NCBI GenBank assembly: GCA_900696455.1
Contig: CAADGB010000264.1
Span: forward strand, 1-35,014
Direction of reading: 5' to 3'
Source: an uncultured delta proteobacterium
GTDB lineage: Bacteria > Myxococcota_A > Polyangia > Haliangiales > Haliangiaceae
Length of the DNA: 35,014 nt
A program made the translations under genes and the position numbers. The notes under the pieces were generated by a model, which saw only the letters and a list, made by a program, of their open reading frames with translations, searched no databases and was not told the DNA's origin. This document shows positions 8,002 to 28,046 of this stretch, one piece after another; within the stretch, counting starts at the first letter, position 1, and every line of letters begins with the position of its first letter.

Positions 8002-8829
8002 TCAGGGCTCGGTGAAGTCGCGGATGAGGCGGTGGACCTGGCCGGCCGCGACGTCGACCAGGACCTTGCGCTCGACGCCGTGCTCGCGGTTGCGGAAGAC
8101 GATCGTGCGGCGGCCGGGCGCCACCGCGATCCCGCGCTGCGGGGTCCAGCCGATGCGGCGGCCGTCGACGTAGAGCTCGCACGGCGGCTTGCTGTTGATG
8201 CGCAGCTCGGCCAGCCCGGGGCTGGACGGCGCCGCGGCCGGCGGGCGGGGGCGGGGACGCCCGGAGGTGGCGGTCCGGCGGGCGGGGCGGGGCTCGGCGG
8301 CGGGGGCCGCGGGGGCGCGGGTCGAGGGGGCGCGGGCGGGAGCCGCGGGGGCGGAGGCCGCGGGCGCGGAGGCGACGACGGTCACGGGATCGGGGGTGAC
8401 GACGATCGCGGGGACGGGATCGGGATCGGGATCGGGATCGGAGGCGGGCGCGACGACGGGGGCGGGGGCGGGCTCGGGGGCGGGGGCGACGACGGTCGCC
8501 GGGGAGCGCGCGACGGCGGAGGCGGGCGTGAGCGCGGGCTCGACGACGGTGGTCGGCGCGGCGGCGAGGGCGGGCGCGGGCGCGGGGGGCGGGCTGGAGC
8601 GCACCACCAGGGTCGTGATCGCGACCGTGAGCATGCCGGCGACGAAGGCGCCGAGGACGGCGGCGGGCGAGGCGACGACCCGCCGCGCGACGCGCACGAC
8701 CTGGGTCACCTCCTCGCGCGGCAGCCGGCGCGGTCGCGGCGGCTGGAACCAGTCGAGGTCGACGGCGACCGGCCGCTGCTGTGCCAGCTCGATGAGGCGG
8801 GTGACGGCCGTGGACTCGGTCTTCGCCAC
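8002..8829 (-). CDS. Membrane protein with C-terminal PEGA domain
   Basis: This 275-residue protein has a cytoplasmic N-terminus (~1-52), one membrane span (~55-76), a long Ala/Pro/Val linker (~80-205) including an Asp-Pro run, and a C-terminal PEGA domain (LAELRINSKPPCELYVDGRRIG, then TPQRGIAVAPGRRTIVF). PEGA domains are small surface-associated folds common in myxobacterial kinases and secreted proteins. The layout resembles the tail of a kinase-PEGA protein without the kinase. GTG at 8829 is chosen because TAGCCT lies 7 bases upstream; GTG at 8835 is also possible. Its function is unknown. The linker may span periplasm or peptidoglycan. Confidence 0.75.
   Translation of the reverse strand: MAKTESTAVTRLIELAQQRPVAVDLDWFQPPRPRRLPREEVTQVVRVARRVVASPAAVLGAFVAGMLTVAITTLVVRSSPPPAPAPALAAAPTTVVEPALTPASAVARSPATVVAPAPEPAPAPVVAPASDPDPDPDPVPAIVVTPDPVTVVASAPAASAPAAPARAPSTRAPAAPAAEPRPARRTATSGRPRPRPPAAAPSSPGLAELRINSKPPCELYVDGRRIGWTPQRGIAVAPGRRTIVFRNREHGVERKVLVDVAAGQVHRLIRDFTEP
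8416..8439 (-). repeat. Hexanucleotide tandem repeat (GGGATC on plus, four units)
   Basis: Four perfect 6-base units inside the PEGA protein gene encode an Asp-Pro run in its linker. Such tracts are prone to length change by slippage in multiples of two residues. Confidence 0.85.
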
Positions 8830-8836
8830 GATCACG

Positions 8837-8866
8837 AGGCTACGTGGCCTCGCCCTCGCGAGTAAA
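8837..8866 (-). promoter_or_regulatory. Putative promoter of the PEGA protein gene
   Basis: On the minus strand TTTACT (8866-8861, four of six to TTGACA) and TAGCCT (8842-8837) are separated by 18 bases. The -10 ends 7 bases before GTG 8829, so the mRNA would have almost no leader. Confidence 0.45.
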
Positions 8867-8975
8867 GCGGGGCGGTGCGCGGGCGGCGCCGCGCTGGTGG
8901 GCACGCGACCCACATCGGCGCCGGCCCCTGGCCCGGGCGGGATCTCGCGCCGCCGGCGCCTCGCCCGCCGGCGAA

Positions 8976-9004
8976 TTGACCCGGATCGATCGCGGCCGTA
9001 CCGT
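8976..9004 (+). promoter_or_regulatory. Putative promoter of the HEAT/TPR-like gene
   Basis: TTGACC (8976-8981, five of six to consensus) and TACCGT (8999-9004) are spaced by exactly 17 bases. The -10 ends 11 bases before the ATG at 9016, leaving a leader of only a few bases. Confidence 0.55.
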
Positions 9005-9015
9005 CAGGCAGATCG

Positions 9016-10551
9016 ATGGGCAACGTGGGGTCACGCGGCGCGGCCTCCGGTTCCGGAGGCTCGGGGGGAGACCGGCGGACGGGCGTCCAGGGCGTGTCGG
9101 GCTCGTGGGCCGGGCTGCACCGCCTGCGCGCCAGCTTCGATCGACCGCGCACCCCCACCGAGGAGCGGGTGCTGCTCGACCTCGCCCGCACGCTCGGGGC
9201 CACCGCCGTCCCCCTGTGCGCGCGCGCGCTGGCCGGCGCCGCCGACCCCGAGCGCCGGGCCTGGGCGGTGGCGCTCCTGCGCGCGCTCGCCGAGGCCGTG
9301 GCCGACCGGGTGCGGGCGGCGCTCGGCGAGGTCACCGCCGGCGCGGCCGGCGACGACGCCAAGCTGGCGGCGCTCGGGCTCCTGGCCGAGCTCGGCGACG
9401 AGACCGCCACCGCGCGCTTCGTCGATCCCGCGCGGGTCCACCAGCAGTCGCTCCTGCGCTTCGCGACCCAGCTCGACTCCGCCGCCGACGTCGCCAGCGC
9501 CGCCGAGCTGCTGGTCTCGCGCCTGCCCGGCGACGAGCTCGTCCAGTTCGTCGAGGCGTTCGCCGAGGCCAGTCCGGACGGCGCCCGCCGCCTCGCCGAC
9601 GAGCTGTGCGCGCGGGTCGAGCTCGACGTGGCGACGCGCAGCGAGCTGCTCCGGATCGCCGCGCCGCTGCGCCTGAGCTGTCCGCCGCCGGCGGCCCGGC
9701 CCCTGGGGCGGCCGGCGCTCCTCGCCGGCCTGCGTCACCCCGACGGGCGGACCGTGGTCGCGGTCGCCCGCCGCAGCCCGCCGCCGTCCGGGGTGCCGAC
9801 GCGCCGGCGCTGGCGCTTCCTGTGCGTGCTGTGCGATCCGGCCGGCACCATCACGACCGCCCACTACCGCGACGACGCCACCCTGGCCAGCCTGCGCGAG
9901 GACGTGGTCACGCCGCTCGAGGCCGCGGGCTACGAGCGCTTCACGATCTCGGCGCCGGCGGCGCGCCGCCTGGTCGGGACCGCGGCGCGGCGCACCGTCA
10001 GCGGCGGCGGCGCGTTGCCCAGCGCCTACTCCCTCGGCCGCGACCTGCTCGGGATCACCGACGGCCACGTCGTCAACGGCAAGGCCGGCGAGCCGGCGGC
10101 CCTGCTCGGTCGCGCGGTCGACCTGCTCGCCGCCGGCGACAGCCTGCGCGCCCGCCCGCTGCTCGAGCACTACGTCGCCGGCGCGCCCGACGACGCCGAG
10201 GCGGTGTCGAGCCTGGGCCTGTGCCTCCTGGCCCAGGGCGAGCTGGCGGCGGCGCTGCGCCAGCTCGAGCGCGCCGCGCGCCTCGAGCCGGCGTGGCCGC
10301 TCCACCACTGGAACGTGGCCGCCGCCGCCCACCGCGCCGGCGAGCTGCGCGCCTGCGCCCGGGCCCTGCGCGAGTTCCTGGCCCGCGCCGACGATCCGGT
10401 CGCCGCCTCGATCGATCCCGGTCACGGTCGCCGGGTCTCGATCGCCCGCCGCTTCGTCGCCGATCACGCCCGGCTCGAGCGCGCGGCCGACGGCCCCGGG
10501 GCCTCGGGGCCTGGCGGCGGCGGCGACGCGCCGCTCACTCCGCTGGCGTGA
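9016..10551 (+). CDS. HEAT-like/TPR repeat protein, hypothetical
   Basis: I do not recognise a named family for this 511-residue protein. Residues ~35-215 are Ala/Leu/Glu/Arg-rich helices arranged like HEAT repeats. Residues ~235-325 form a mixed alpha/beta region (RRWRFLCVLCDPAGTITTAHY), and ~360-455 contain TPR-like helix pairs (DAEAVSSLGLCLLAQGELAAALRQL and the following pair ending LEPAWPLHHWNVAAAAH). There is no signal peptide or membrane span, so it is probably cytoplasmic and acts as a scaffold. The ATG at 9016 follows a good promoter by 11 bases. Its end overlaps the convergent AgmX-like gene by 17 bases. Confidence 0.8.
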   Translation: MGNVGSRGAASGSGGSGGDRRTGVQGVSGSWAGLHRLRASFDRPRTPTEERVLLDLARTLGATAVPLCARALAGAADPERRAWAVALLRALAEAVADRVRAALGEVTAGAAGDDAKLAALGLLAELGDETATARFVDPARVHQQSLLRFATQLDSAADVASAAELLVSRLPGDELVQFVEAFAEASPDGARRLADELCARVELDVATRSELLRIAAPLRLSCPPPAARPLGRPALLAGLRHPDGRTVVAVARRSPPPSGVPTRRRWRFLCVLCDPAGTITTAHYRDDATLASLREDVVTPLEAAGYERFTISAPAARRLVGTAARRTVSGGGALPSAYSLGRDLLGITDGHVVNGKAGEPAALLGRAVDLLAAGDSLRARPLLEHYVAGAPDDAEAVSSLGLCLLAQGELAAALRQLERAARLEPAWPLHHWNVAAAAHRAGELRACARALREFLARADDPVAASIDPGHGRRVSIARRFVADHARLERAADGPGASGPGGGGDAPLTPLA

Positions 10552-11074
10552 GCACGAAGCGGATCGTGATCCGGGCGACGCCGGCGCGCGGCCGCGCGGG
10601 CAGCGGCCACGCCCGGCTCCGCGCCTCGACGCAGCCCGCGACCGCGGCCAGGCCCACCTCGCCCGGTGGCGGCGTCGTGCTCGCGCCCAGGACCACGCCG
10701 CCCGGATCGATCTCGAGCAGGAGGTCGAACGCCCCGGCCAGGGTCGGTTCGCCCTCGAGCGCCCGGGCGTAGCAGTCCTGGACCTCGGGCAGCCGCGCCG
10801 TGACCGGCGCGACCAGCGCGGCGGCGTGGTCGCTGCCCGTCGGCGCGGGCGACGCTGGCGCGTCGTCCGGGGAGGGCGGCGGCTCGACCGGCGGTGTGCG
10901 CCCCGCCACGGTCACGACGAACGGACCCAGCTCGGCGGTGACGTCCTCGATCGCGGGGAACGCCGGCGGCGCGGCGGGCATCGGCGCCGGCGACGCGCCG
11001 CGCGCGGCGGGGCCGCACGCCGGTCCGGCCGCGGCGAGGGCCGCGGCGAGGGTCGCGGCGACGACCGTGGTCAT
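10535..11074 (-). CDS. Secreted protein with AgmX/PglI-type C-terminal domain
   Basis: This 179-residue protein has an N-terminal signal sequence (MTTVVAATLAAALAAAGPAC) with an imperfect lipobox, a Pro/Ala spacer, and a C-terminal ~80 residues matching the AgmX/PglI-like (TonB-like) pattern: CYARALEGEP, then a GAFDLLLEIDPGG strand, then a second Cys and an RITIRFVL strand. In myxobacteria this domain occurs in proteins linked to gliding or envelope transport, but the single domain gives no specific function. ATG 11074 is preferred to the upstream frame because the signal peptide begins there. It overlaps the convergent repeat protein gene by 17 bases. Confidence 0.72.
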   Translation of the reverse strand: MTTVVAATLAAALAAAGPACGPAARGASPAPMPAAPPAFPAIEDVTAELGPFVVTVAGRTPPVEPPPSPDDAPASPAPTGSDHAAALVAPVTARLPEVQDCYARALEGEPTLAGAFDLLLEIDPGGVVLGASTTPPPGEVGLAAVAGCVEARSRAWPLPARPRAGVARITIRFVLTPAE

Positions 11075-18917: not shown

Positions 18918-19016
18918 TGATCACCTGGATCGTGGTGATCCGGACGGCGGCGGCGGGCTTGACAGCGCGACCCGGGGACCGGGCGGTCTGCCCGCCCGGG
19001 GCGCCCGCGCTCGATG

Positions 19017-19022
19017 TACGCT
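19017..19022 (+). promoter_or_regulatory. -10-like element of the VanY-like peptidase gene
   Basis: TACGCT ends 6 bases before ATG 19029. A perfect TTGACA at 18959-18964 is too far upstream to be its -35. Confidence 0.35.
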
Positions 19023-19028
19023 GGGCGG

Positions 19029-20228
19029 ATGCGGGTCGCCACCTCGCTGGTCGCCGTCGTGACGCTCGCCGCCGGCGCGGCCTGCGGCGAGGCGCCCGAG
19101 CTGGCGGCGATCGAGCAGGCGGCGACCGTCGGCGATCACGAGACCACGACCTGCACCACCGCGGTCGTGATCGAGCTGTCGCGGCAGATCGCGGCCGAGG
19201 TCGACTGCATGGCGCCCGGCCAGCTCGTGGCCTTCGCCGAGGGCGGCGGCGTGGTCTTCGCCGGCGCCGCGGTCCTGCCCTACGTCAGCGAGGGCGGGCG
19301 CGAGGATCTGCTGGCCGCGGTCGCCGCCGGCGGCGGCATGTCGCTGCAGGTGACGAGCGCGTACCGCTCGGTGGCGCAGCAGTACCTGCTCTACCGCTGG
19401 TTCCAGCTCGGCCGCTGCGGCATCACGGCGGCGGCGGTGCCCGGGCGCAGCAACCACGAGAGCGGCCGCGCCGTCGACGTCTCGCCCTACGCCCCGTGGG
19501 TGTCGCTCCTGGCCGATCACGCCTGGGACCAGACCGTGCCCGGCGATCCGGTGCACTTCGATCACCTGCAGTCGCCCGACCTGCGCGGCACCGACGTGCT
19601 CGCCTTCCAGCGGCTGTGGAACCGCAACCACCCCGAGGATCCGATCGCCGACGATGGTCAGTGGGGGCCCGAGACCGAGGCCCGGCTGGTGCTGTCGCCC
19701 GACGACGGCTTCCCGCAGGGGCCGGCGTGCGCCCCGGGCGGGCTGGCGCTGGCGATCGAGTCGCTCGCCGCGCCGCGGGTGATGGCCCCGGGCGCGCGCG
19801 CGACGGTGTCGCTGGTCCTGCGCAACAGCGGCAGCGCGCCGTGGCCGGCCGGGACCGCGCTGGTCACCGCCGGGCCGGCCGGGCGCGCGAGCGCGTTCGC
19901 GGGCGACGAGTGGCCGGCCGCCGACCGGGCCGCGGTCATCGACGCCGCGATCGCGCCCGGCGCCACCGTCGCGCTCGCCCTCGACGTCGTGGCGCCGCTG
20001 GCCGGCGCCGCCGCCGAGCTCACCGAGGACTTCTCGCTCCTGGCCGGCGACGTGCGCTTCGGCATGATCACGCTGGTCATCCGGGTCGATCCGGACGCCG
20101 CGGCGAGCGGCGGCTGCGCGGCCGGTGGTGGTGGTGGTGGCGCCGGCGGCGGCGGCGCACTCGCGCTGGCGCTCGCGGTGATCGCGCGCCGGCGTCGCCG
20201 GCCGATCACGACCGCGGGCCGAGCATGA
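19029..20228 (+). CDS. VanY/M15-type D,D-carboxypeptidase with PG-binding domain and MYXO-CTERM-like tail
   Basis: The 399-residue protein has a signal peptide ending near AACG (possible lipobox, Cys19). An M15-like zinc peptidase domain follows with SNHESGRAVDV (His143, Asp150) and GDPVHFDH (His176), the family zinc ligands. Next come a peptidoglycan-binding segment (VLAFQRLWNRNHP, DGQWGPETEARL, ~186-220) and an Ig-like NBR1-type domain (~243-340, RNSGSAPWPAG). The C-terminus has a Gly-rich stretch with Cys, hydrophobic ALALALAVIA and a final Arg run, matching the MYXO-CTERM sorting-signal layout. It likely trims peptidoglycan stem peptides and is anchored at the cell surface. It is convergent with, and overlaps by 23 bases, the large protease gene. 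Confidence 0.85.
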   Translation: MRVATSLVAVVTLAAGAACGEAPELAAIEQAATVGDHETTTCTTAVVIELSRQIAAEVDCMAPGQLVAFAEGGGVVFAGAAVLPYVSEGGREDLLAAVAAGGGMSLQVTSAYRSVAQQYLLYRWFQLGRCGITAAAVPGRSNHESGRAVDVSPYAPWVSLLADHAWDQTVPGDPVHFDHLQSPDLRGTDVLAFQRLWNRNHPEDPIADDGQWGPETEARLVLSPDDGFPQGPACAPGGLALAIESLAAPRVMAPGARATVSLVLRNSGSAPWPAGTALVTAGPAGRASAFAGDEWPAADRAAVIDAAIAPGATVALALDVVAPLAGAAAELTEDFSLLAGDVRFGMITLVIRVDPDAAASGGCAAGGGGGGAGGGGALALALAVIARRRRRPITTAGRA

Positions 20229-23200
20229 CGAGCTGGAGGTAGCCGCGGTCGTCGGTGAGGCGGCGGCTGGCCTGGTAGCGGAGGGCCAGCGGCAGGCGGA
20301 ACAGCGACAGGCGCACGGTGAGCGCGCCGCCGGCGGCGAGCAGGTGCCGCGTCCGCGCCGCCGCGGGCTCGACGAGGGCGCCGGCGGCGAAGACCTCGAC
20401 CTCGAGCTCGGACAGGAACGACGCCGGCAGGAAGCCGAGGCTGGGCACGCCGCGGTCGACGATCAGCGGGTAGCGCCACGCGAGGTCGGCGAGGGCCACG
20501 CGCTCGGCGGCGACCGGCAGATCCTCGAAGCCGCGCAGCGGCTCGCCGAAGCGACGCTGCCGGGGCAGGACGCCGTCGCCGAGCCCGAGCTCCGCCGGCT
20601 CGCCGCCGCTCGACCACAGCGCCGGCAGCGCGGCCTCGCCGCCGATCGCGATCAGCGGCCCGGGCGCGCCGAGGACGGCGTGGCCGCGCAGCGTCGCGCG
20701 GACGACGTGGCGACGGGTCCCCACCACCGGCGCGTACACGTCGAGCCGGCCGCGGAGCTCCTGCAGGTCTCCGGCGGGTCGCGGGAACCACGCACCGCCG
20801 GCGCTCAGCGCCAGGCCGCGGCGCGGGCCGCTGGCCCGCGTCGACTCGATCGCGGCGTAGCCGAGCGTGAGCTCCGGTCCGTACAGCCGGAGGGTCGTGG
20901 CGTCGACGCGATCGAGGGCGTACGCGCCGCCGGCGGCGACGCCGTAGGTGCCGCGCCAGGTGCGGCCGAGGGCGAGCACGGCGTCGCGCACCTCGCGCTC
21001 GTACGCGGCGATCAGGGCGCCGTCGTCGGCGCGGACCTCCTCGGGGAAGTGGAGGCGCTGGCCGTGGGCGATCAGCACCCACGGCGCGAGGTCGTTGAGG
21101 ATGACGCCGCCGGCGCCGGACAGCTTGCGATCGCCTGGATCGACGTAGCCGGCCACCGCCCAGCGCACCAGATCGAGGCGGTCCCCGCCGGCGAGGGCGA
21201 GGCCGACCTGGTTCACGCCGACGGCGGGGGCGAGGAGGGCGAGGGTGTGCAGGGTGGGGCGGAAGAGGCCGTCGAGGCGCGAGTAGGGGCGATCGTCGAG
21301 GACGCGAACCGGGGCGGGCGCGGCGGCGGGGTCGGGCGCGAGCGCGGGGACGGATCCGGATCCGGGTCCGGGTTCGGGGCTGGATCCGGGTTCGGGTTCG
21401 GTCTCGGATCCGGGTTCGGGTTCGGTCTCGGAACCGGATCCGGGTTCGGTCTCGGAACCGGATCCGGGTTCGGTTTCGGTCTCGGTCTCGGCCGCGGTCG
21501 CGGTCGCGGTCGCGGGCTCGGTCTCGGGCTCGGTCTCGGCCTCGGGCTCGGCCTCGGGCTCGGCCTCGGGCTCGGCCTCGGGCTCGGGCAGCGCGAGCTC
21601 GTCCAGGGTGTAGCGCCAGCCGTCGCGGGCCAGGAAGCGCAGCGCGCCGCCGCGGGCGCGGACCTCGAGCGCGCCGTAGGGGGCGTCGCTCACCACGCGG
21701 CGCGCGCCGCCGGCGCCGGCCACCGCCACCTGGAAGCGGCCGTCCACCACCGCCAGCAGGACGAGCCGGCCGTCGTCGGTGTAGGCGCCGTCGAAGACCG
21801 GGGTGTCCCCGTCGCCGGCGTGCGTCGCCAGCCGGGCGCCGGTGGTGGCGTCGAGCTCCCACACCGCGAAGCGCGCGCCGTCCCACACGCTCACCGCCAG
21901 GCGCGCGCCGTCGCGCGCGAACCCGGCGCGCAGGGCGTACTGGCCGGGCGCGGCCTCCCACAGCACCCGCCGCCCGCCCGTGGCCAGGTCGCGCGCGGCC
22001 AGGCTCCACCGATCGCCGTCGACGACCATGTGGACGTAGCTCGCGCCGTCGGGCGCGATCGCGCCGCCGGGCCCGAGGTCGCGGGCCACCTCGGCGAGCC
22101 CGCCGCCGCGGCGCCAGCGGACGAGCCGCGTCGTCTGGTAGGTCGCGCCCTGATCGACGCTGGTGAACCACAGGCTGCCGTCGGCGGCGAAGCCCAGGCC
22201 GGAGACCAGGAGCGGCGCCGCCATCACCTGACGGCGCGGCGGCACCAGGTCGACCAGCGCGCGCTCGTCGAGCAGGCGGCCGGCGCCGTCCCACACCCGC
22301 AGCCGCGCCGGCAGATCGAGGTCGCCGTCGATCACCGCCACCTCGCCGGCCGGCCCCCACGCCCAGCGCGCGTCCTCGCCCAGCGCCTGCACCACGCGCT
22401 GCCCCGGCGGTCGTCGCCGCACCGGGTAGCGCGCGGCGACCCAGCGCTGGAAGTCGCCGACGAGCGCCGGCAGGCCCTTGCCGTAGACCTCGGCGAAGCG
22501 GCCGCTCACCGAGAACAGGATCGAGGTCGAGCGCGCCTGCAGCTCGATCACCCGCCACAGCGGGGCCTCGCCGTAGGTCTCGGCCAGGTACTCGACGAAC
22601 ATCGTGCCGACCAGGTAGTGGTGGCCGACCCAGGCCCGCCGGTGCTCGGTCGCCAGGTCGCCGCCGCCGAGCCCGCCGCCGGCGTAGGCGGCGTGGAACA
22701 TGCTCGTGAACACCGGCCACCGCGGCCGACCGACCCCGGGGACCAGCCGCGCCTCGTAGTAGGTGGCCAGCCCCTCGAAGAACCAGGCGTCGAGGCCGAC
22801 CTGGGGCGAGACCAGCTCGCCGAACGCGACCCGCAGCGCGCCCCACAGCCCGGCGATCTGCTTGGCGTGGACGTAGTGGACCAGCTCGTGACAGCCGACC
22901 ATCCCCGGATCCGGCGGCAGGCCGAAGGACGTCGTGAAGTCGAGGGTGTTGGCGGCGGGCACGACCGCGACGTCCTCGAGCCCGGCCACCGGCGGCAGCA
23001 CGTAGGCGTTGTTGAACGGCGCGTCGGGGACGACCACGATCATCTTCTCGCGCGACGCCCGGTTGTCGAGCCGGGCGTGGGCCCGCAGCGCGGTGGCGCA
23101 GCCCTCGAGCCGCGCCGCCATCCGCTCGGCCAGCGCCCGCCGGCCCTCGGGGTAGTAGAGGAGGAGCTGCGCGGTCTCCATCCGCCGCATGTCGGCGCCG

Positions 23201-23346
23201 GCGAGCGCGGCCTGCACGTCGGCGGGGAAGCGCGCCGCCGGCACGCCGCAGGCCGCCGCCGCCCCCAGCGCGGCCACGATCGCCGCCGCGCCCACGACCC
23301 GCGCCATCGCGGCGCCGGGGCGGGGCAGCAAGGGTCGGCGGCGCAT
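20206..23346 (-). CDS. Gluzincin-type metalloprotease with propeller and outer-membrane barrel-like C-terminus
   Basis: The 1046-residue product has a lipoprotein-like signal (ATG 23346, or MARVV at 23307; lipobox AAAC). An N-terminal peptidase domain follows with HELVH (153-157) and the downstream WFFEGLATYYE (Glu191 as likely third zinc ligand), the gluzincin pattern. Residues ~330-640 show beta-propeller (TolB-like) repeats (FAADGSLWFTS, FARDGARLAVS, TDDGRLVLLA). Next is an acidic Glu/Thr/Pro/Gly/Ser linker (21310-21594). The last ~330 residues are alternating beta strands ending LQLVMLGPRS, suggestive of a membrane barrel. The probable role is a surface-exposed protease, but the barrel assignment is inference. 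ATG 23346 follows TATCGT by 8 bases. Confidence 0.82.
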   Translation of the reverse strand: MRRRPLLPRPGAAMARVVGAAAIVAALGAAAACGVPAARFPADVQAALAGADMRRMETAQLLLYYPEGRRALAERMAARLEGCATALRAHARLDNRASREKMIVVVPDAPFNNAYVLPPVAGLEDVAVVPAANTLDFTTSFGLPPDPGMVGCHELVHYVHAKQIAGLWGALRVAFGELVSPQVGLDAWFFEGLATYYEARLVPGVGRPRWPVFTSMFHAAYAGGGLGGGDLATEHRRAWVGHHYLVGTMFVEYLAETYGEAPLWRVIELQARSTSILFSVSGRFAEVYGKGLPALVGDFQRWVAARYPVRRRPPGQRVVQALGEDARWAWGPAGEVAVIDGDLDLPARLRVWDGAGRLLDERALVDLVPPRRQVMAAPLLVSGLGFAADGSLWFTSVDQGATYQTTRLVRWRRGGGLAEVARDLGPGGAIAPDGASYVHMVVDGDRWSLAARDLATGGRRVLWEAAPGQYALRAGFARDGARLAVSVWDGARFAVWELDATTGARLATHAGDGDTPVFDGAYTDDGRLVLLAVVDGRFQVAVAGAGGARRVVSDAPYGALEVRARGGALRFLARDGWRYTLDELALPEPEAEPEAEPEAEPEAETEPETEPATATATAAETETETEPGSGSETEPGSGSETEPEPGSETEPEPGSSPEPGPGSGSVPALAPDPAAAPAPVRVLDDRPYSRLDGLFRPTLHTLALLAPAVGVNQVGLALAGGDRLDLVRWAVAGYVDPGDRKLSGAGGVILNDLAPWVLIAHGQRLHFPEEVRADDGALIAAYEREVRDAVLALGRTWRGTYGVAAGGAYALDRVDATTLRLYGPELTLGYAAIESTRASGPRRGLALSAGGAWFPRPAGDLQELRGRLDVYAPVVGTRRHVVRATLRGHAVLGAPGPLIAIGGEAALPALWSSGGEPAELGLGDGVLPRQRRFGEPLRGFEDLPVAAERVALADLAWRYPLIVDRGVPSLGFLPASFLSELEVEVFAAGALVEPAAARTRHLLAAGGALTVRLSLFRLPLALRYQASRRLTDDRGYLQLVMLGPRS
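21353..21590 (-). repeat. Low-complexity repeat tract encoding an acidic linker
   Basis: The tract contains a perfect 24-base tandem duplication (21427-21450 and 21451-21474) and four consecutive near-identical 12-base units (21541-21588). It encodes ETEPGSGS-type and EPEA-type runs in the protease. The mix of units suggests recent expansion by slippage, always in multiples of three bases. Confidence 0.85.
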
Positions 23347-23411: not shown

Positions 23412-24083
23412 TCAGGCGTCGCGCCGGCCCGACGGCGGCACCACCACCGGCACGAGCTCGTCGCCGTCGAGGTCGATCACCGTCGGCGCGCGCGTGCACT
23501 CCGCGGTCGTGACGTTGGCGACGACGGTCCGGCCCTGGCGCCATAGCCCGCCGTCCTCGTGGATGTGGCCGAAGAGGTGGAGGCGGGGCGCGACCTCGGG
23601 CAGCCGGTCGCGCAGGGCCTCGCACCCGGCGTGGGCGTCGCCGGTCCAGCCGGTGCGATCGCCGGTGCCGTGGGGCGGGCCGTGGGTGACGAGGATGTCG
23701 AGGCCGACCGGGATGCGCGCCCACACCTTCGCCAGCGCCGGGCCGCGCGGCAGGTTGAAGGCCCAGGCGAAGAACTCGGGCTGCCACGGGCTGCCCCACA
23801 GGCGCAGGCCGTCGAGCTCGACGCCCTCGTCCTCGAGGTAGATGACGCCGCCCAGGATCGCGCGCGCCTCCTGCGGCTGGAGCTGGCAGGCGCGGTCGTG
23901 GTTCCCGGCGATGACGACCTTGTGGCGGTGGGGCAGGGCCTCGAGCCAGCGGACCGCCCGCTCGAGCTCGGCCAGGTCGCCCCAGTTGCACAGGTCGCCG
24001 GCGTGGATCAGCAGGTCGCCGTCGGGCACGGCGTAGCCCGGACCGTGCGCGAGGTGGGTGTCGGCGAGGGCGACCACGCGCAT
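23412..24083 (-). CDS. Calcineurin-like metallophosphoesterase
   Basis: The 223-residue protein has the full metal-binding set: DTH (Asp8, His10), GD (Asp30), GNHD (60-63), THGPPHG and GHIHE. It is the small 239FB/MPPED-like type and may hydrolyse phosphodiesters; the substrate is unknown. ATG 24083 lies 6 bases after the stop of boxR, so it is likely cotranscribed with that regulator. No functional link to aromatic degradation is known to me, and the adjacency could be chance. No signal peptide is seen. Confidence 0.9.
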   Translation of the reverse strand: MRVVALADTHLAHGPGYAVPDGDLLIHAGDLCNWGDLAELERAVRWLEALPHRHKVVIAGNHDRACQLQPQEARAILGGVIYLEDEGVELDGLRLWGSPWQPEFFAWAFNLPRGPALAKVWARIPVGLDILVTHGPPHGTGDRTGWTGDAHAGCEALRDRLPEVAPRLHLFGHIHEDGGLWRQGRTVVANVTTAECTRAPTVIDLDGDELVPVVVPPSGRRDA

Positions 24084-24089
24084 GCCCCG

Positions 24090-24869
24090 CTACCCCGCCG
24101 CCAGCGCCGCGAGCTGGTCGACGACCGCGGCCACCGGGCGGCGGCTGGTGTCGACGGTGTGGTGGGCGCTGGCGTAGAGCGCGGCGCGGGCGGCGAGCAG
24201 CGCCTCGAGCTCGGCGTAGGCGTGCGGGTTGCGCGCCATGGGCCGGCGGTCGCCCTGCTGGACGACGCGGTTCCAGTGATCCTCGGGTCGCGCCTTGAGC
24301 CAGACCGTCAGGCAGCGCGCGCGCAGGAAGGCGTAGTTGTCGGGGTCGCTGACGATCGAGCCGCCGGTGGCCAGCACCATCGCCGCCGGTCGGGCCAGGA
24401 GCGCGCGCAGCACCTCGCGCTCGACCTTGCGGTAGTAGGCCTCGCCGTGGAGCTCGAACAGCTCGCCGAGCTTGAGCCCGGCCTGCTTCTCGATGTGCTG
24501 GTCGAGCTCGACGAACGGCACGCCGAGCCGCTGCGCCAGCTCGCTGCCCACGGTCGACTTGCCGGCGCCGCGCACGCCCAGGAGCGCCACCGCCTTGCGC
24601 CGGGGCGCCGGGGCCAGCCCGGCCAGCAGCTCGGCCGGGGTCGTGCCCAGGGCCGCCGCCACGTCGGCGAAGCGGGCCAGCGAGATGTTGCCGGCGCCGC
24701 CCTCGAGCTGGGCCAGGAAGCGCTCGCTCACGCCCGAGCGCTCGGCCAGGGCCCGCCGCGACAGCTCGAGCTGCTGGCGGCTGGATCGTACCCGCGCCCC
24801 GACCTGCCCGAGCAGGGTGTCGCCGCGGCCGCCGTGGCCGCCGTGGCCGCGAGAGGAGCGCGAGGCCAT
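24090..24869 (-). CDS. boxR: BoxR/BzdR-type regulator: XRE helix-turn-helix fused to shikimate-kinase-like domain
   Basis: The 259-residue protein has an XRE-type HTH at residues ~25-84 (RALAERSGVSERFLAQLEGG) and a shikimate-kinase-like domain from ~93 with an intact P-loop (GVRGAGKST, 98-106). This fusion is the known layout of BoxR and BzdR, repressors of benzoate catabolism that sense benzoyl-CoA with the kinase-like domain. The identification is strengthened by the divergent boxC-boxB genes. ATG 24869 is chosen: the -10 element TATAGT ends 6 bases before it, so the transcript probably begins at the A of ATG. The upstream frame (to 24908) would place the start inside the promoter. The metallophosphoesterase gene follows after 6 bases. 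Confidence 0.92.
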   Translation of the reverse strand: MASRSSRGHGGHGGRGDTLLGQVGARVRSSRQQLELSRRALAERSGVSERFLAQLEGGAGNISLARFADVAAALGTTPAELLAGLAPAPRRKAVALLGVRGAGKSTVGSELAQRLGVPFVELDQHIEKQAGLKLGELFELHGEAYYRKVEREVLRALLARPAAMVLATGGSIVSDPDNYAFLRARCLTVWLKARPEDHWNRVVQQGDRRPMARNPHAYAELEALLAARAALYASAHHTVDTSRRPVAAVVDQLAALAAG

Positions 24870-24875
24870 GGCGGA

Positions 24876-24904
24876 ACTATAGTGCATATCAGGCGGCGAA
24901 TCAA
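24876..24904 (-). promoter_or_regulatory. boxR promoter
   Basis: On the minus strand TTGATT (24904-24899, four of six) and TATAGT (24881-24876, four of six) are exactly 17 bases apart. The predicted transcription start falls at or next to ATG 24869, so the mRNA would be leaderless. The -35 overlaps the palindrome at 24902-24919, which fits autoregulation. Confidence 0.6.
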
Positions 24905-24919
24905 GCAATAAATTGCTTG
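24902..24919. promoter_or_regulatory. Palindromic candidate BoxR operator
   Basis: CAAGCAAT-AA-ATTGCTTG is a perfect 8-base inverted repeat with a 2-base spacer. It is strikingly AT-rich for this genome and lies between boxR and boxC. TGCA tetramers, the core of known BzdR sites as I recall, occur at 24883-24886 and 24918-24921. It overlaps the boxR -35 and the possible boxC -35, so a bound repressor would block both. Binding by BoxR is inferred. Confidence 0.6.
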
Positions 24920-24946
24920 CAGGTCAAGTCCCGGCCACGCTAGATC
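24917..24946 (+). promoter_or_regulatory. Possible boxC promoter
   Basis: TTGCAG (24917-24922) and TAGATC (24941-24946) are 18 bases apart, each matching three consensus positions. The -10 ends 8 bases before ATG 24955. The -35 overlaps the palindrome. The match is weaker than that of the boxR promoter. Confidence 0.35.
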
Positions 24947-24954
24947 CTGGCCCC

Positions 24955-26589
<1,635 letters not shown>

Positions 26590-26633
26590 GCGCGCCCCGA
26601 TCCACCGCGACCGAATCACGCAGCGAGGGAACG

Positions 26634-28046
<1,413 letters not shown>

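Follow-up and report, generated by a model that had tools for sequence, protein, structure and literature searches.

The window, by which we mean the whole stretch of DNA that was analysed (35,014 nucleotides), carries on its minus strand a coding sequence for a protein of 1046 residues, in which a probable zinc metalloprotease domain, a TolB-like propeller, a low-complexity linker and a predicted β-barrel follow one another. The first-pass annotation had placed a three-part protease here, and a minus-strand open reading frame with the claimed parts was indeed found. The features are listed below in the order of the protein, with the basis of each in parentheses.

20206..23346, minus strand: whole coding sequence, 1046 aa (open reading frame and relatives)
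23248..23307, minus strand: possible lipoprotein signal peptide, M14 to Cys33, AAAC (sequence, judged by eye)
22417..23244, minus strand: probable zinc metalloprotease domain, aa 35-310 (motif conservation)
22876..22890, minus strand: HELVH, aa 153-157, zinc-binding motif (H153, E154 and H157 invariant in 4/4 proteins)
22753..22785, minus strand: WFFEGLATYYE, aa 188-198, with E191 as probable third zinc ligand (invariant pattern in 4/4 proteins)
21592..22416, minus strand: TolB-like β-propeller, aa 311-585 (full-length model, structure matches)
21301..21591, minus strand: low-complexity linker, aa 586-682, with PE, TE and GS repeats (sequence)
21535..21587, minus strand: perfect 12-base array, 53 nt, 4.4 copies, EPEA repeats (repeat scan)
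21417..21474, minus strand: perfect 24-base tandem duplication, 58 nt, 2.4 copies, ETEPGSGS (repeat scan)
21382..21432, minus strand: second perfect 24-base duplication, 51 nt, 2.1 copies (repeat scan)
20209..21300, minus strand: predicted Omp85-type 16-strand β-barrel, aa 683-1046, no POTRA domain seen (low-confidence model)
20527..20535, minus strand: RGF, aa 938-940, at the Omp85 L6 position, within the long loop that joins strands 11 and 12 (invariant in 4/4 proteins)

A contig scan with residues 143-262 of the 1046 as query gave 51 candidate stretches and, from these, three relatives (L001, L002 and L003), all from Myxococcales MAGs, so that every comparison reported here involves four proteins, the window protein and its three relatives. 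All parts of the window protein are kept in the relatives, whose identities to it are 65, 65 and 50% over the whole protein. Taken part by part, the protease domain shows 78, 75 and 61% identity, the propeller 70, 68 and 58%, the linker 36, 31 and 30% and the barrel 59, 65 and 38%; among the four proteins conservation is highest in the protease domain, and of the folded parts the barrel changes fastest. In all three relatives the protease gene has a VanY-type gene and an SNF2 helicase gene on its 3' side, with the VanY match at 0.2, 1.3 and 2.3 kb from the protease stop. Because the relatives share both the parts of the protein and these 3' genes, 20206-23346 is, on sequence comparison, a real coding sequence. 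No relative of its product was found in plasmid records searched at E up to 0.01 or in the viral contigs searched.

The VanY-type gene of the window is convergent with the protease gene, the two open reading frames overlapping by 23 bases at their 3' ends (20206-20228), and is therefore probably not co-transcribed with it. On the upstream side, a phosphoesterase and a regulator with a shikimate kinase domain are both present in L001 too, while neither was matched in the approximately 9 kb of upstream DNA of L003 or in the little upstream DNA of L002. None of the neighbouring genes suggests envelope assembly, and none names a function.

A later ATG at 23307 (M14) provides an alternative start, giving a protein of 1033 residues. 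It would create a more ordinary lipoprotein-like signal, of 20 residues with a cysteine at its end, and may be the true start. As the N-terminus of L002 is not readable, the N-terminal comparison covers three of the four proteins, the window protein and two relatives; in all three a cysteine is aligned, by eye, after the hydrophobic stretch, and one of them, L003, has a strict lipobox (LAGC). These sequences make an N-terminal lipid anchor on the protein possible.

Both motifs first noted in the protease domain, HELVH and the downstream WFFEGLATYYE, are present and, in the forms HExxH and WFxEGLATxYE, invariant in the four proteins, and no loss of zinc ligands was seen among them. The Glu of WFxEG always lies 34 residues after the second His (H157), and this residue, E191 in the window protein, is the probable third zinc ligand as judged from the alignment. 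In the full-length model, HExxH falls in a predicted helix at 150-178 and E191 in one at 187-201, in a region of low confidence with pLDDT < 50 across most of the domain. Motif and conservation fit a gluzincin (clan MA(E)). Since conservation is highest in this domain and all ligands are retained, preservation of catalysis is suggested.

The protease domain had no significant family match in the family and structure sequence searches. Matches to NXF1 (0.4) and oxosteroid dehydrogenase (0.46), as well as those to SpmX (0.0067) and flagellinolysin (0.11) in one member each, were set aside as sub-threshold or unrelated. RHA1_ro05818_N (0.057) and Peptidase_M9 (0.3), likewise in one member each, and MXAN_6640_HExxH (0.22, in 2/4 members) remained sub-threshold. 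The HExxH families among these sub-threshold matches agree in motif, which falls short of demonstrating membership.

The propeller-like repeats of the earlier description correspond to a TolB-like propeller in the full-length model. The mean pLDDT of this model is 41.6, and within residues 331-550 it reaches 57-86 in 21 of the 22 ten-residue blocks, the remaining block (371-380) having a value of 32. The structure matches listed for the full-length model fall mainly in the propeller region. The first 15 Foldseek matches are all TolB, with best E values of 1.2e-8 for a computed model and 2.4e-8 for a crystal structure, and VIA-align superimposes TolB with a Z of 19.8 (rmsd 3.1, 241 residues), followed by other propellers (YncE, RBBP5, WDR5) with Z of 17-18. 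The likeness to TolB lies in the propeller fold; TolB differs in being a periplasmic protein without protease or barrel. A profile of the four sequences matched TolB (0.051) and other propellers (0.16-0.19) before unrelated chains, and an EML propeller (0.0046) and PD40 (0.043) were each matched by one member of the four; none of these sequence matches was counted as significant. Matches to NESP55 (0.28) and PARP (0.32), each in one member of the four, and to Cytochrom_D1 (0.34) and CopC (0.82) were rejected as sub-threshold or unrelated.

The linker between propeller and barrel had been credited with a perfect 24-base tandem duplication and four 12-base units. Both were recovered at the positions listed above, together with the second 24-base duplication. 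The longest period-12 and period-24 runs were matched by 0/2000 codon shuffles and 0/2000 codon-pair shuffles of the linker, and a chance origin of the repeats was rejected on this basis. The length of the linker is 97 residues in the window protein and 75, 87 and 30 residues in the relatives, and its make-up differs as well: L001 has a perfect 6-base ACCGAG array with CCGCAA units, L002 has DATA- and SPSA-like units, and L003 has a short proline-alanine stretch whose DNA repeats are only weak. The simplest cause of these differences is repeat slippage. Of the earlier picture of an expanding, fast-evolving linker, the variation in length (30-97 residues) and make-up among the four proteins is borne out, and the expansion itself is not. 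A match to the MXAN_5453 family (0.022) was judged compositional because it runs mostly across the linker.

The C-terminus was folded alone, using the four sequences, and gave an Omp85-type barrel of 16 strands with low confidence, the best of five models having a pLDDT of 54.9 and a pTM of 0.53 and the other four a pLDDT of 52.5 to 32.1. In the full-length model the barrel part has a pLDDT < 50, and past residue 902 it contains no strands save one isolated residue. The proposal of a strand-rich, barrel-like C-terminus thus holds at the level of a low-confidence model, and a soluble C-terminus without a barrel did not appear on structure prediction in these four proteins. Its extent has to be corrected from the last 330 residues to about 364. 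With the barrel model as query, Foldseek returned 101 matches with E up to 0.001 (best E 2.4e-7); the best 50 of the 101 titles comprise 45 BAM/BamA, 3 TamA, 1 mitochondrial SAM complex and 1 "a membrane complex" (5ayw), which we take to be BAM. The 50 matches listed by VIA-align are CdiB, BAM/BamA, FhaC and TamA, with CdiB at the top (Z 20.1, rmsd 3.9, 295 residues).

In proteins of the Omp85/TpsB superfamily, loop L6, which joins strands 11 and 12, carries an RG(F/Y) motif. In the barrel model the longest loop, of 56 residues, connects strands 11 and 12 and contains RGF 938-940, which is found in all four proteins, and the 16-strand barrel of BamA/FhaC type typical of the superfamily is seen in the low-confidence model (pLDDT 54.9). 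The C-terminal residue, which is aromatic in many barrels, is not aromatic in the window protein. Pfam gave no match for any of the four barrel sequences at E up to 10, which is an insensitive test, and the barrel profile had no match to E. coli BamA, an insensitive comparison with a single BamA; searched against solved structures, the profile retrieved just two unrelated chains (E 1.4 and 2). The predicted fold match is consistent, though the model is weak.

No POTRA domain was seen, the order being propeller, low-complexity linker and barrel, and the protein can therefore belong only with the POTRA-less Omp85 groups. Such groups are counted inside the Omp85/TpsB superfamily by Heinz and Lithgow (2014; PMC4104836), who distinguish ten subfamilies, among them WD40-Omp85 and "Metallo"; in the wording of a paper on PlpD, Omp85 members have at least one POTRA domain, and the subfamilies with WD40-like domains are not well characterised (PMC11116518). 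In WD40-Omp85 proteins an Omp85 barrel is preceded by a TolB-like propeller and POTRA is absent; these proteins are described as reminiscent of a BamA-BamB fusion (PMC4104836). The window protein has the same order of propeller and barrel, by predicted fold only. It differs from the subfamily, as far as the published description of the latter goes, in its additional N-terminal metalloprotease and its long repeat linker. The architecture had been called unusual; it is less isolated than that word implied, since WD40-Omp85 was named in 2014 (PMC4104836). Within the literature searched, the phrase WD40-Omp85 occurs in no paper other than PMC4104836. None of the literature matches listed describes a protease-propeller-Omp85 fusion in its title or the opening of its abstract. 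Database entries with this order of domains probably exist in other phyla.

Two further groups of Omp85 fusions and one separate enzyme offer partial parallels. The "Metallo" subfamily shares a metal-dependent enzyme domain on an Omp85 barrel (PMC4104836), but the Pfam number printed for it, PF00149, is the Metallophos phosphoesterase family; the metalloprotease label in that text therefore looks mistaken, and the subfamily apparently has no protease like that of the window protein. PlpD, of the patatin-Omp85 type, is likewise a hydrolase fused to an Omp85 barrel, and its hydrolase is reported to be periplasmic; it differs in that the enzyme is a patatin-like lipase and not a protease, POTRA is present, and no propeller is named in the available text (PMC11116518). 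BepA is a zinc peptidase of family M48 that resides in the periplasm and acts at the BAM complex, in the assembly and degradation of the outer-membrane protein LptD (PMC8423444). Unlike the window protein, BepA is a separate protein with no barrel fusion, and the two may be likened by role.

In the barrel model, loops of 8, 4, 5, 2, 6, 56, 6 and 6 residues are found on the side that bears the long 11-12 loop, and turns of 5, 2, 3, 3, 7, 16 and 2 residues on the opposite side. In barrels, outer loops are usually the most variable. With strand limits taken from the low-confidence model, four sequences, and gaps merged by hand, 11 indel sites were obtained in the barrel, of which 6 fall inside outer loops, 4 are no more than 3 residues away from one (a margin set after the sites were seen) and 0 are near inner turns; the remaining site is mid-strand, at barrel residues 188-191, and fits no loop. 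When the region of the largest loops was left out, 8/9 sites were in or near outer loops (binomial p 0.0006). Invariant positions make up 17/38 of the inner turns and 14/93 of the outer loops (Fisher p 0.0006), and 10/22 versus 6/37 without L6 and T6 (p 0.03). Since the loop and indel pattern matches the expected variability of outer loops, the N-terminus of the barrel, and with it the propeller and the protease, should lie in the periplasm. By sequence, model and analogy, the N-terminal domains are thus probably located at the inner face of the outer membrane, a topology that is moderately supported; lipidation of the N-terminal cysteine, if it occurs, would agree with this placement.

Our preferred reading, to which we give about an even chance, is that of a WD40-Omp85-type protein of the outer membrane, in which a zinc metalloprotease domain sits on the periplasmic side and cuts envelope proteins. 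Its anatomy is backed by conservation and prediction, and we infer the task and the substrate. The C-terminal barrel would be inserted by BAM, and propeller and protease would be suspended in the periplasm, held at one end by the lipid and at the other by the barrel. The disordered linker would sit where most Omp85 proteins carry POTRA domains and could serve as a length-tolerant tether. The propeller may serve to bind substrates or partners, and cleavage of proteins at the membrane would fall to the protease, with envelope proteins that are misfolded or immature as its likeliest targets; this task would resemble, by analogy, the work of BepA on the BAM complex.

An alternative that we consider unlikely is that the main work of the protein is barrel assembly or translocation, assisted by a BamB/TolB-like propeller, and that the protease fold binds or only trims. 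The barrel and propeller models fit such a role, as does the published comparison of WD40-Omp85 with a BamA-BamB fusion (PMC4104836); against it, the protease domain is better conserved than the barrel (78, 75 and 61% versus 59, 65 and 38%) with all its ligands kept, and no POTRA was seen. We find it rather improbable that the barrel is a mere anchor for a protease whose targets are periplasmic proteins, peptidoglycan-associated or otherwise, that have nothing to do with the assembly of outer-membrane proteins: the rapid change of the barrel and the VanY-type peptidase gene found 3' of the protease gene both in the window and in 3/3 relatives would suit this explanation, but that gene is convergent and the RGF motif is invariant in 4/4 proteins. 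Display of the protease by its own barrel, which the first-pass annotation had envisaged, is equally improbable and not favoured; the linker would thread the barrel, and propeller and protease would be carried outward for feeding or predation. In its favour, 4/4 proteins have at least 30 residues of low-complexity linker ahead of the barrel, which would in principle be long enough to cross it, and display had earlier been suggested for PlpD (type Vd; PMC11116518). Against it, the loop and indel patterns place the barrel N-terminus inside, and the protein N-terminus may be lipidated. The enzyme of PlpD, moreover, is by now reported to remain periplasmic; passage of a folded domain through a barrel of the Omp85 kind is argued to be highly unfavourable, and passengers that do cross fold outside, for example as β-helices (PMC11116518).

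If the reading of a periplasmic envelope protease on a WD40-Omp85-type barrel is carried further, the protein may be a quality-control machine of the outer membrane in a single chain, which we put forward tentatively. It would combine a BepA-like protease, a TolB/BamB-like propeller and an Omp85 barrel, anchored by lipid and barrel, with a microsatellite-coded tether that replaces POTRA and varies between close relatives without loss of function. A WD40-Omp85 protein bearing a protease would provide a testable handle on what such barrels do, and the linker a natural test of whether a plain flexible tether can replace POTRA domains.

Several further observations concern the surroundings of the gene. 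In L001, about 2.3 kb (8400-10689) separate the protease stop from the VanY match, as opposed to the overlap of the open reading frames in the window. The gene at 19014-20228 encodes a VanY-type peptidase with an NBR1-like Ig domain, and its C-terminus (Gly/Cys, hydrophobic, Arg-rich) resembles a MYXO-CTERM anchor. Farther away, the minus-strand open reading frame 8002-8913, without a Pfam match, contains GC-rich tandem repeats of several overlapping periods at 8245-8594. The window also has a stand-alone PF00149 gene at 23412-24083, and genes of the benzoyl-CoA (box) pathway adjoin the protease gene at 24090-28046, where the regulator with a shikimate kinase domain (NF006015), BoxC (TIGR03222) and BoxB (TIGR03225) are encoded.
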